Under the pieces are notes generated by a model. The model did not search any database and was not told the origin of the DNA. It worked only from the letters and a program-made list of their open reading frames with translations. The position numbers and the translations under genes are program-made. Below are positions 1,388 through 19,084 of a stretch of DNA of 38,527 nt, piece after piece (the stretch's first letter is position 1; the number at the start of each line of letters is the position of its first letter). Source of the stretch: Candidatus Polarisedimenticolia bacterium (GTDB lineage: Bacteria > Acidobacteriota > Polarisedimenticolia > Gp22-AA2 > AA152); contig DASTZC010000261.1 of assembly GCA_035764505.1 (NCBI GenBank), positions 1 through 38,527 on the forward strand, read 5' to 3'.

Positions 1388-3484
1388 ATGCCATCTCAAA
1401 GACTTCTACCGCTAGTACTGTTGCTTTCGCTGGCCACTGCCGCCTGCGCCTCCGGCCACAATTCCTCCGGCGCGCGGCCCGTCTCCGTCATTCCGGCGTC
1501 GGCGACGCCCCTATTGACACCGCCAGCGGCCGCGGAAACGTCAGATTCCGGACAGGAGCCTGCGAAGGACCAGGCGCCGGCCCCCTCGGACAAGGTCGGG
1601 GCGGTCATCGAGGCGATGCAGGACCTCTACAACTCGGGACTCGAGGCGCACAAGGCGGGACGCTTCGACGAGGCGCGCGACTATTTCGACCAGGCGGTTG
1701 AGACGGCGCTGAACGGGCCGGTCGACATCGACGCCAACGTAGCGCTGAAGGCGGCCTACGAGGAGATGCTGGTCAACATCGACGGTTTGGAAGGGGACCT
1801 CTACCAGGACGGCGTCGCGCAGGGTGAAGAGCCTCCCAAGGACGAGCTGAAAGACATCACCGACTATCTCTCTCCCGAAGAAGCCGAGAAGGAGCGCGAG
1901 AAGGTCCAGGCAGCCTCCCCGGAAGTCCAGTACGACATTCCGATGGTCCTCAACGACAAGGTGCTCACCTTCATCGAGGCTTTCCAGACGCGGATGCGCG
2001 GCCCCTTCGAGGCGGGCCTGGTCCGCTCGGGCCGCTACCTGTCGATGATCAGGAAGATCTTCGCGGAAGAAGGGGTGCCGCTGGATCTGGCCTACATGGC
2101 GCACCAGGAAAGCGCTTTCAAGACCAGCGCTTATTCGCGGGCCAAAGCCAGGGGACTCTGGCAGTTCATCGCTCCCACCGGGCGCAAATACGGATTGAAG
2201 CGGGACCAGTGGGTGGACGAGCGCTCCGATCCGGAGAAGTCGACGCGCGCGGCGGCCGCCTATCTGAAGGACCTCTACGCGATGTTCGGCGATTGGCACC
2301 TGGCGATGGCCGCCTACAACGCCGGCGAGGGGAAGGTGGGGCGCGGACTGACGCGTACCGGCACCAAGGATTTCTGGAGCCTGGCTTCGAACAAGCGGGC
2401 CCTACGCACCGAGACCAAGAACTACGTTCCGGCCATCCTTGCCTCGATGGTCATCGACAAGGCGCCGCAAGAGTACGGCTTTCACGTGGAGCCGGTGGCC
2501 GAGCTGACGTATGACTGGGTGAAGCTGGACACCGCCACCGACCTCAAGGTGGCGGCCGAGTGCGCCGGCATCTCGGTGGACGAGCTTCGCGATCTCAACC
2601 CGGAGCTGCGGACGATGGCCACGCCCCCGTATGCCGAGGGGTACTCGCTGCGCGTGCCCTTCGGATCCGGGCAGAGCTTCTCGGAGAAGTACGCGGCCAT
2701 CCCCGCCACCGAGCGGCTGAAGTGGGCCACCCACGTGGTGCGCCGCGGCGAGACGATCGGCGTCATCGCCCGCAAGTACGGCGTGTCGACCTCCGCCGTG
2801 CTGACCGCGAATTCGCTCAAGAGCTCGCGCCTGCACGCGGGCCAGTCGCTGATGATCCCGCTGTCGGGCGGCATGACGCAGCAGCCGGTGGAGCGGGCGC
2901 AGTACGATGAAGAGGCGCCGACCTACGATCGCGGCGAGAAGGTCGTGCACCGCGTCCGCAAGGGCGAGACGCTGCAGAAGATCGCGGCCCGCTACCATAC
3001 GACGATCGACAGTCTGAGGTCCTGGAACGGCATCTCCGGCTCCTCGATCCGCGCCGGCCAGCGCATCACCGCCTATTACCGGACGGTGGCGACGGCGCCG
3101 GTGGACACCAACGACGCGCCGGCGACGGTGGCGGCAGGCGGCGAGTACAAGGTGCGGCGCGGCGACACGCTGTACAGCATCGCGCAGCGCTTCGGCATGA
3201 CGGTGGACCAGCTGCGCTCCGCCAACAACCTTGGGCGCAAGAGCGTCATCAAGCCGGGCGACCGGCTGAAGGTGTCGGGCGGCCCCGACGTGGAAGGCTC
3301 GCTGACGCGGCCTTCAGGCCCGTCGTCGACCAACGTCATCCGCTATCGCGTGCGCCCGGGCGACACCCTGGAGCGCATCGCGACCCGGCACAACGTGGAG
3401 GTCTCCGAGGTTATGCGCTGGAACAACCTTCACTCCGCGGACGAGATCTACGTCGGGACGACGCTGCGCCTGCACGTCAACTAG
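1388..3484 (+). CDS. MltD-like membrane-bound lytic murein transglycosylase with four LysM repeats
   Basis: This 698-residue lipoprotein is predicted to cleave the MurNAc-GlcNAc bond of peptidoglycan without water, forming 1,6-anhydro ends. The N-terminus is a lipoprotein signal with candidate acylated Cys20 (TAAC). Residues about 75-105 look like one TPR-type helical hairpin. The SLT domain spans about 228-345, with the catalytic Glu in AHQESAF (Glu241), then GLWQFIAPTGRKYGL and AMAAYNAGEGKV. Four LysM peptidoglycan-binding repeats follow at about 448-491, 519-562, 586-629 and 652-698, each starting VRxGxT. Domain order and length match MltD with extra LysM units. It has its own promoter and is divergent from recA. 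An intrinsic terminator lies about 60 nt past the stop. Family assignment is firm; the exact symbol is not. Confidence 0.93.
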   Translation: MPSQRLLPLVLLLSLATAACASGHNSSGARPVSVIPASATPLLTPPAAAETSDSGQEPAKDQAPAPSDKVGAVIEAMQDLYNSGLEAHKAGRFDEARDYFDQAVETALNGPVDIDANVALKAAYEEMLVNIDGLEGDLYQDGVAQGEEPPKDELKDITDYLSPEEAEKEREKVQAASPEVQYDIPMVLNDKVLTFIEAFQTRMRGPFEAGLVRSGRYLSMIRKIFAEEGVPLDLAYMAHQESAFKTSAYSRAKARGLWQFIAPTGRKYGLKRDQWVDERSDPEKSTRAAAAYLKDLYAMFGDWHLAMAAYNAGEGKVGRGLTRTGTKDFWSLASNKRALRTETKNYVPAILASMVIDKAPQEYGFHVEPVAELTYDWVKLDTATDLKVAAECAGISVDELRDLNPELRTMATPPYAEGYSLRVPFGSGQSFSEKYAAIPATERLKWATHVVRRGETIGVIARKYGVSTSAVLTANSLKSSRLHAGQSLMIPLSGGMTQQPVERAQYDEEAPTYDRGEKVVHRVRKGETLQKIAARYHTTIDSLRSWNGISGSSIRAGQRITAYYRTVATAPVDTNDAPATVAAGGEYKVRRGDTLYSIAQRFGMTVDQLRSANNLGRKSVIKPGDRLKVSGGPDVEGSLTRPSGPSSTNVIRYRVRPGDTLERIATRHNVEVSEVMRWNNLHSADEIYVGTTLRLHVN

Positions 3485-3488
3485 ATTT

Positions 3489-3517
3489 TTGACAGCGGCG
3501 CGACGGGCCGCTAGCAT
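3489..3517 (+). promoter_or_regulatory. Near-consensus sigma-70 promoter in the transglycosylase-comM gap
   Basis: TTGACA (3489-3494), a 17-nt spacer and TAGCAT (3512-3517) make one of the best promoter matches in the window. It begins 4 nt after the transglycosylase stop codon. The predicted start is near 3524. It drives either comM with a structured leader or a short terminated RNA, because a strong terminator follows at 3547-3587. Confidence 0.65.
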
Positions 3518-3523
3518 GAAATT

Positions 3524-3587
3524 CGCTTCCGGGAGGGAGCGGACAGGGAGAGCCGAGGGGTAATACCCCGGGCTCTCCTTTTATTTT
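3524..3587 (+). ncRNA. Candidate small RNA or attenuated comM leader
   Basis: From the predicted start, the transcript would fold as a 7-bp hairpin with a GGGA (GNRA-type) tetraloop at 3524-3541. A 5-nt linker and a strong terminator hairpin ending in a U-rich tract at 3587 follow. The unit is about 64 nt, holds no open reading frame, and ends 20 nt before the comM start. It may be an independent small RNA, or a leader whose terminator controls read-through into comM. I know of no matching RNA family. The structure is read directly from the sequence; the function is inference. Confidence 0.4.
3547..3587 (+). terminator. Strong intrinsic terminator before comM
   Basis: GGAGAGCC (3547-3554) pairs perfectly with GGCTCTCC (3571-3578). 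The interior extends the stem with GGGGT/ACCCC around an AAT loop. TTTTATTTT follows at 3579-3587. It could end the transglycosylase transcript, but it also lies just downstream of the promoter at 3489-3517. Confidence 0.8.
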
Positions 3588-3607
3588 GCCCGGGTGAAAG
3601 GCGAACC

Positions 3608-5134
3608 GTGCTGGCCCGGGTTCAAAGCGGCGCGATCGTCGGGATCGAGGCCGTCCCCGTCTGGGTCGAGGTCGACCTGTGCGGCGGCATTCCCTGCGTG
3701 AACATGGTGGGGCTTCCCGATGCCGCCGTGCGCGAGAGCCGCGATCGCGTGCGTGCCGCCATCCAGAACAGCGGCCTTTCCTTCCCCCCTCGCCGAATCA
3801 CCGTCAATCTCGCCCCCGCCGCCTTGCGCAAGGAAGGCACGGCGCTGGACCTCCCCGTGGCCGTCGGCATTCTTCTGGGAGCCGGCACCATTGCGGCTGG
3901 AAAGGCCGATGGATTGTTCCTGGCGGGGGAGCTGTCGCTGGATGGCGGCCTGCGACCCGTCTCGGGGGCCATCTCGATGGCGCTGGCGGCGCGCGGGCTT
4001 GGCTGCCGCGGCATGCTGCTGCCCGCCTCGGTGGCATCGCAGGCTTCGGTCGTTCCTGGAGTCTCAGTCTTCCCGGTCCGCAGCCTCGCCGAGGTGGTGG
4101 CTTTTCTGATGGGCGAGTCGGAGATCGGGGCGCTGCCGGAGCTCGATTACTCCGCGGCGGGGGAGGAGGACTGGACCGGGGAGGACTTGGCCGAAGTGGC
4201 GGGCCAAAGGGCCGCCCGACGGGCGCTCGAGGTGGCGGCCTCGGGCGGTCACAACCTCTTATTAGTGGGGCCGCCCGGGTCGGGCAAGACGATGCTGGCC
4301 CGGCGGCTCCCGGGCATCCTGCCGCCTCTGGGGCGCGAGGAAGCAGTGGAGGCGACACGGGTCCACAGCGCCGCCGGATTGGTCCAGAACGGCACGCTGC
4401 TTCGCCGCCGGCCCTTCCGGGCGCCCCATCATTCCATCAGCGGCGTCGGCCTGGCGGGAGGAGGCTCGGTCCCGCGGCCGGGGGAAGTCTCGCTGGCGCA
4501 CCACGGCGTTTTGTTCCTCGATGAGCTGCCGGAGTTCCGGCGCGGCGCGCTGGAAGTCCTGCGCCAGCCGATGGAGGAGGGGAAGGTCGTCATCAACCGG
4601 GCGCTGCAGATTCTGGAGTTCCCGGCGCGCTTCATGCTGGTGGCGGCGATGAACCCGTGCAAGTGCGGCAACCTGGGAGTGGCGGGGGCCGATTGCCGCT
4701 GCACGCCTCTGCAGGTGCGGGAGTATCGTGGCCGCATCTCCGGGCCGCTGCTGGACCGCTTCGACATCCACCTGGAGGTGCCGCGCGTTCCGGCCGGTGA
4801 CTTGCACGCCACGGCGCCTGGCGAATCCTCGGAGGTGGTGCGCGACAGGGTAGCGGCGGCTCGCGAGACTCAGGGCCGGCGCTTTGCCGGCCGCGCGACG
4901 CGCACGAACGCGGCGATGACCGCGTCTCAGCTGCGCGAGCATTGCGCCCTCGATGCTGTGGGACGCAAGCTCCTGCGCGGCGCCGTAGACCGCCTCGGCC
5001 TCTCGGCCCGCGCCCACAACCGGATTCTCAAGGTGGCGAGAACGCTGGCCGATCTCGCGGGCGCGCCGGAAATCGCCCCCGTCCACCTCGCCGAAGCGAT
5101 CCAGTACCGCTTGCTGGATCGCTCGGAACGCTAG
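3608..5134 (+). CDS. comM: ComM/YifB family AAA+ ATPase (Mg-chelatase-like)
   Basis: ComM is a hexameric DNA helicase that promotes branch migration during natural transformation; homologues are annotated YifB or Mg-chelatase-like. The 508-residue frame has the usual length. The N-terminal ribosomal-S5-like domain opens MLARVQSGAIVGIEA and contains VGLPDAAVRESRDRV. The AAA+ core has Walker A GPPGSGKTM at about 221-229, the RPFRAPHHSISGVGLAGG segment, Walker B VLFLDELPEF, and AMNPCKCG. The C-terminal Mg-chelatase domain ends with the AHNRILKVARTLADL helix. The start is GTG at 3608 with AAAGG just upstream, matching the conserved N-terminus. Although 20 nt from a terminator, it shows no sign of truncation. 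Possession of comM is not itself proof of competence. Confidence 0.95.
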   Translation: MLARVQSGAIVGIEAVPVWVEVDLCGGIPCVNMVGLPDAAVRESRDRVRAAIQNSGLSFPPRRITVNLAPAALRKEGTALDLPVAVGILLGAGTIAAGKADGLFLAGELSLDGGLRPVSGAISMALAARGLGCRGMLLPASVASQASVVPGVSVFPVRSLAEVVAFLMGESEIGALPELDYSAAGEEDWTGEDLAEVAGQRAARRALEVAASGGHNLLLVGPPGSGKTMLARRLPGILPPLGREEAVEATRVHSAAGLVQNGTLLRRRPFRAPHHSISGVGLAGGGSVPRPGEVSLAHHGVLFLDELPEFRRGALEVLRQPMEEGKVVINRALQILEFPARFMLVAAMNPCKCGNLGVAGADCRCTPLQVREYRGRISGPLLDRFDIHLEVPRVPAGDLHATAPGESSEVVRDRVAAARETQGRRFAGRATRTNAAMTASQLREHCALDAVGRKLLRGAVDRLGLSARAHNRILKVARTLADLAGAPEIAPVHLAEAIQYRLLDRSER

Positions 5135-18493: not shown

Positions 18494-19084
18494 ATGCCGA
18501 TGCAGAGCCTGGAACAACTCTTCGTAGACAAGCTCAAGGACATCCACGATGCGGAGAAGCGCATCGCCCGGGCCCTGCCCAAAATGGTCAAGGCGGCCGC
18601 GTCACCCGAGCTGGCGGCGGCTTTCGAGGAGCACCTCCTGGTGACCGAAAAGCAGATCGAGAGACTGGACAGGATCTTCGCGAGCTGTGCAATCTCCTCG
18701 GGCCGGAAGATCTGCCATGGGATGAAGGGGATCCTCGAAGAGGGAGAGGAGCTGCTGAGCAAGGAGAGGAATGAGGCCGAGGAGTCGGTGCTGGATGCCG
18801 CCCTGATTGCGGCCGCCCAGGAAGTGGAGCATTACGAGATTGGCGCCTACGGCTGCCTGAAGGCCTGGGCCGAGATTCTGGGCTGGAGCGAGGAGGCCCG
18901 TCTTCTGTCGCAGAGCCTGGATGAAGAAGAGCTCACCGCCGAGAAGCTCAGCGAGCTGGCCTCGGCCATCAACCCGCAGGCCATGGAAGCGGGCCACAGT
19001 GAATCCGAGGAAAAGGAAGTCGCCGAGGGCGGGAGAGGCGCCAGAAACGGCCACAGGCAAAAACAGCATCGCCGCGCCAGCTAG
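18494..19084 (+). CDS. DUF892 (YciE/YciF-like) ferritin-fold stress protein
   Basis: This 196-residue protein is a four-helix ferritin-like domain of the YciE/YciF family. It opens LEQLFVDKLKDIHDAEKRIARALPKM, and has the paired metal-type motifs FEEHLLVTEKQIERL and AAQEVEHYEIGAYGCL. Family members form dimers with a dinuclear-metal-like site; in enterobacteria they are induced by osmotic and sigma-S-type stress. The last 35 residues are a charged tail rich in Glu, then Gly, Arg and Lys, not typical of the domain. AGGAGA lies 6 nt upstream of the ATG. The gene converges with the mbtH-like gene, 24 nt from its end. Confidence 0.9.
   Translation: MPMQSLEQLFVDKLKDIHDAEKRIARALPKMVKAAASPELAAAFEEHLLVTEKQIERLDRIFASCAISSGRKICHGMKGILEEGEELLSKERNEAEESVLDAALIAAAQEVEHYEIGAYGCLKAWAEILGWSEEARLLSQSLDEEELTAEKLSELASAINPQAMEAGHSESEEKEVAEGGRGARNGHRQKQHRRAS

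Follow-up and report, generated by a model that had tools for sequence, protein, structure and literature searches.

A putative transcription attenuator in the 5' leader of comM in one family of Polarisedimenticolia

Helicases of the ComM type take part in integrating DNA strands that enter the cell. In the window, the whole 38,527-nucleotide stretch of Candidatus Polarisedimenticolia DNA analyzed here, comM is preceded by a promoter, a short hairpin and an intrinsic terminator. From this arrangement and its conservation, we give slightly better than even chances to the reading that the comM 5' leader is a transcription attenuator with a promoter-proximal intrinsic terminator, and most comM transcripts would then probably be cut short before the gene. 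Such an attenuator would most likely be specific to the lineage and be opened by something binding the arm of the terminator that carries a conserved 9-nt word, GGAGAGCCG.

All elements of the locus lie on the + strand. A sigma-70-like promoter (3489..3517) was read directly in the sequence, with a TTGACA -35 box at 3489-3494 and a TAGCAT -10 box at 3512-3517 separated by 17 nt; it was also detected by the promoter scan and is conserved in the order. Hairpin 1, CGCUUCC-GGGA-GGGAGCG (3524..3541), begins at the predicted +1. The word GGAGAGCCG occupies positions 3547..3555; all but its last base form the 5' arm of the terminator (3547..3587), in which GGAGAGCC (3547-3554) pairs with GGCUCUCC (3571-3578) around an inner stem, GGGGU/ACCCC, followed by the T-tract TTTTATTTT (3579-3587). 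The comM start codon is a GTG at 3608, 20 nt past the T-tract. The gene (comM/yifB, 3608..5134) encodes a Mg-chelatase-like AAA+ ATPase: a domain search found ChlI, Mg_chelatase and C-terminal domains and a match to TIGR00368 above the cut-off (E 5e-176), which places the product in the ComM/YifB family. The upstream neighbor (1388..3484) encodes, according to the domain search, a MltD-like lytic transglycosylase with SLT and LysM domains. A second promoter-like match (10-of-12) is found at 1313-1342, 46 nt before the transglycosylase start codon. Direct reading thus bears out the coordinates and sequence of the promoter-hairpin-terminator unit, including its 20-nt distance from comM, as they had been described in an earlier sequence-only reading of this DNA.

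The unit is not likely to have arisen by chance. The predicted 65-nt RNA has a folding energy of -38.9 kcal/mol, while its shuffles average -21.8 (z -5.9), and 0/200 of them were as good. The promoter scan returned 1 site in 3 kb, compared to 0.1 in shuffles. The standard terminator scan does not list the terminator at 3547-3587, presumably because of its internal loop; a separate scan of the 38.5-kb window found 1 U-tract terminator and 4 promoter-like sites, and the terminator follows one of them. Promoter-terminator units were also sought in 20 stretches per genome, which were picked by contig number and earlier matches and are not random. The 292,388 bases taken from elsewhere in the window's genome contained 40 promoters, 15 terminators and no unit, where 0.14 would be expected. 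The related genome G003 (369,066 bases, in stretches that deliberately include the comM locus) contained 77 promoters, 29 terminators and three units versus 0.41 expected: comM itself, a tRNA-Met gene, which is a true RNA gene, and one weak site. The latter (L265, + strand, about 18532-18625) has a hairpin of -10.3 kcal/mol and CCAGAGAGG in its leader, and is possibly a chance occurrence. Intrinsic terminators look scarce in the same scan (1 in the 38.5-kb window, 15 in the 292,388 bases scanned elsewhere in the genome), a hint that transcripts of this lineage may be ended in other ways.

The order was sampled with 12 genomes, four from the window's family, a small one of uncultured bacteria (G000-G003, of which G000-G002 form one genus), and eight from a sister family. 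Within the window's family, promoter, hairpin 1 and terminator are all kept before comM in 4/4 genomes, three of them from one genus: in each, the GGAGAGCC/GGCUCUCC pairing is followed by a U-tract, itself 20-30 nt from comM. Both hairpins, on whose conservation the sequence-only reading depended, are therefore present in every family member. In hairpin 1 the helix is preserved with two pairs changed on both sides; these are compensatory changes of the kind that the sequence-only reading proposed to look for, but as many were found in 59/500 shuffles, and none occurs in the terminator stem, which gives no covariation support because it hardly varies among the four genomes. The GNRA cap first noticed on hairpin 1 is real in the window's genome (GGGA), but it is limited to that genome, the three relatives carrying other loops. 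Conservation of an RNA structure in the leader is thus plausible from these alignments, unproven by covariation.

A covariance model of the family leader found one strong site per genome, at comM only, in 4/4 family genomes, and no comM site in the other 37 genomes of the class. Its weak matches (E 8e-6 to 0.009) fell in 7 places in 6 other genomes, on contigs other than that of comM; several resemble ordinary hairpin or terminator sites and some have no U-tract. A further match is simply the G003 site seen from its opposite strand. A wider survey took in 80 comM loci from named genomes; the upstream sequence was long enough at 78, and three of these have a U-tract terminator within 250 nt of comM. 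Only at one of the three, L102, does a promoter-like match precede the terminator, 187 nt from the comM match, so the promoter-terminator arrangement is rare at comM.

The promoter and the word reach further than the terminator. The comM start region was readable in 10/12 genomes of the order (no comM was matched in G009, and in G008 the match covered just the C-terminal part). In all ten, TTGAC and TANNAT boxes 17-18 nt apart precede comM, and in both families GGAGAGCCG stands 21-30 nt past the -10 box. No other 9-mer occurs in all ten leaders; a shared word longer than 6 nt arose in 0/2000 dinucleotide-shuffle trials over five deep lineages, with shuffles that ignore shared ancestry. The sister-family comM is 56-57% identical to that of the window over near-complete matches, and the rest of the leaders diverge widely. 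Across these genomes, 23 matches were listed for the pattern TANNAT-n-GGAGAGCCG, compared to 3 for the reversed control. Ten of the 23 are at comM; of the others, several sit just ahead of a start codon, where an ordinary ribosome-binding site would be expected. In the window's family the upstream gene encodes a LysM protein, identified by domain search in the window itself and by eye in the three other genomes. The gene in that place in the sister family encodes an FG-GAP-type repeat protein, recognized by eye and lying in frame in G006, G007 and G011. As judged by this comparison, promoter and word belong to comM and not to the upstream lytic transglycosylase, because both stay while the neighbor differs between families.

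In the six readable sister-family leaders, promoter and GGAGAGCCG are retained, with no GGCUCUCC partner and no T-tract (6/6). A copy of the terminator 3' arm acting in trans was also sought in this family: GGCTCTCC-n-TTTTT occurs somewhere in 4/8 genomes, and none of these sites is at comM. The RNAalifold consensus of the sister-family leaders is weak (-11 kcal/mol, unfavorable covariation term) and single folds have z between -0.3 and -1.2, so we do not claim a conserved fold there. Since the order keeps the word even where the terminator is missing, GGAGAGCCG probably serves as a recognition site independently of any terminator, and its primary role need not be antitermination.

How might such a leader work? 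A promoter upstream of an intrinsic terminator, itself before the comM start codon, is what an attenuator calls for; the leader showed no strong alternative fold, no leader peptide and, by Rfam, no ligand-binding domain, so that a trans factor would be needed. ATG, GTG and TTG are absent within 3524-3587, where the sequence-only reading had likewise seen no open frame; this speaks against a leader peptide inside the transcript. An ATG at 3516-3518 overlaps the -10 box and opens a 15-codon frame; predicted transcription begins downstream of this ATG, and the frame is not conserved, ending after five codons in G002. We also asked whether GGAGAGCCG might serve a leader ORF as its ribosome-binding site, but a close start codon exists only in G002 and G007. 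Rfam gave no match at gathering score in the window, and only two unrelated, chance-level matches at E up to 5 over 12 comM loci; a suspected resemblance of the leader to a PyrR-like site was dropped for want of a match. A repeat family or mobile unit was likewise discarded, there being no second full copy in the genome. The best terminator-free folds fall short of the terminator fold by about 9-19 kcal/mol; a switch within the leader itself is thus not obvious. With no start codon, Rfam match or strong alternative fold, leader-peptide and self-switching attenuators are disfavored; the remaining options are simple partial termination and a factor binding the RNA as it is made.

In the model that we propose, RNA polymerase would start near 3524, the predicted +1, and make hairpin 1. 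By default it would stop at the U-tract near 3587, releasing an RNA of about 64 nt. The 20-30 nt between U-tract and comM presumably leave too little room for a second promoter; comM must therefore be transcribed through the terminator, and its product would come only from polymerases that read through. A hypothetical trans factor sitting on GGAGAGCCG would block formation of the terminator and turn comM on. An RNA-binding protein would be the simplest such binder; a 30S subunit at a Shine-Dalgarno-like site may also be envisaged. A broader form of this model is that a dedicated trans factor reads the GGAGAGCCG RNA throughout the order, and that the terminator of one family turned this recognition into an antitermination switch; in a variant, GGAGAGCCG would be a Shine-Dalgarno-like site that lacks a start codon, and the bound 30S subunit would act as the antiterminator. 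We regard this broader form as possible but doubtful.

Read-through RNA may contain a further hairpin (GCCCGGG/CCCGGG, 3588..3620) around the comM ribosome-binding site and start codon: GCCCGGG directly 3' of the U-tract (GCTCGGG in G002) can pair with CCCGGG in the comM codons, and the pairing is formable in 4/4 members of the window's family. That it could cover the ribosome-binding site is tentative, since one arm is coding sequence.

Other explanations of the unit have to be weighed against the attenuator. The terminator could be unregulated, ending transglycosylase transcription and damping comM to a fixed low level. Its position about 60-100 nt past the transglycosylase stop codon would suit this, as would the lack of a self-switching fold in the leader and the absence of the terminator from the sister family, where the upstream gene is another one. 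However, a terminator meant only for the upstream gene would be expected ahead of the comM promoter, whereas here it follows the promoter and the start of the word, an order conserved in 4/4; moreover, the 5'-arm word predates the terminator or exists apart from it. We consider this explanation unlikely, and its simplest version, a terminator that merely serves the transglycosylase, is weakened by the sister family, which keeps promoter and word at comM behind another upstream gene.

Of the two possibilities left by the sequence-only reading, a small RNA gene or an attenuator, it is the attenuator that we favor. A stand-alone gene for an RNA of about 64 nt, acting in trans by pairing or protein binding and with read-through into comM incidental, appears quite improbable: promoter, 5' hairpin and terminator fit, and the same scan also finds a tRNA gene, yet of the 53-55 nt that precede the U-tract no more than 13-21 are free of pairing, no unpaired run exceeds 6 nt, the runs are not conserved, and in the sister family promoter and word lead directly to comM, no terminator intervening. 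Action by base pairing is disfavored in particular because there is no unpaired, conserved seed. Leader-derived RNAs with trans roles are nevertheless known in E. coli (PMC7815308). Finally, GGAGAGCCG could be a DNA operator for a repressor or activator just past the start site, the hairpin being secondary. The invariance of the word at 21-30 nt past the -10 box in both families is compatible with an operator, and in the window's family the word belongs to an inverted repeat with a 15-16-nt spacer; but the T-tract directly after the repeat in 4/4 is what a terminator needs, not an operator, and we hold this to be very unlikely.

Returning to the attenuator, the closest known arrangement is that of the BglG/LicT/SacY type, where a conditional intrinsic terminator in the 5' leader is controlled by protein-mediated antitermination. 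The comM locus has the same order of promoter, short untranslated leader, hairpin, intrinsic terminator and gene, and its conserved element over the terminator 5' arm could be the target of an antiterminator. Unlike these systems, the comM leader has no recognizable binding hairpin of this type and its antiterminator protein is hypothetical, the gene encodes a DNA-processing ATPase and is not part of a sugar operon, and GGAGAGCCG is also kept where the terminator is absent. To our knowledge, the known control of comM-type genes is at the promoter. CRP-S/Sxy control of competence genes in gamma-proteobacteria acts on initiation through activators (PMC4299799; see also PMC6728893); both cases concern competence-type genes, the role of comM in transformation being only putative here, but the element visible at comM would act after initiation.

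Premature termination in leaders is as such well known, and the E. coli small RNAs IspZ and ChiZ are derived from leaders in this way, IspZ likely ending by intrinsic termination (PMC7815308). Like these, the comM RNA would be a short 5'-UTR product in the 60-90 nt range; unlike these base-pairing sponges, it is unpaired at few positions and offers no conserved seed. A leader of the terminator type was not found described for comM/yifB in the literature searched, which covered few subscription papers, in line with the sequence-only reading, to which no precedent was known. All together, the comM leader terminator may be a fresh instance of a known on/off leader type, supported for one family. 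If true, it would represent post-initiation control of comM in a little-studied lineage; the shared 9-nt word GGAGAGCCG would offer a direct bait for finding its factor, and the contrast between the two families, one of which lacks the terminator, shows how a conserved site already in place might become part of an attenuator.

Two minor observations concern comM starts elsewhere. In G007 (L025, 1447-1500), GGAGAGCCG is followed by an ATG in the comM frame, a possible 18-codon N-terminal extension that is absent from relatives. In two other families of the class (L014, and L034 with L164), a hairpin stands before the comM start with a purine run in its loop that resembles a ribosome-binding site: GGAGGC-GAAAGGA-GCCTCC before a TTG at L014, and GGCGG-AACGGAGA-CCGCC at the L034 and L164 comM loci. 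Ahead of these hairpins lie a promoter-like site and a leader whose GAGAG recalls GGAGAGCCG.
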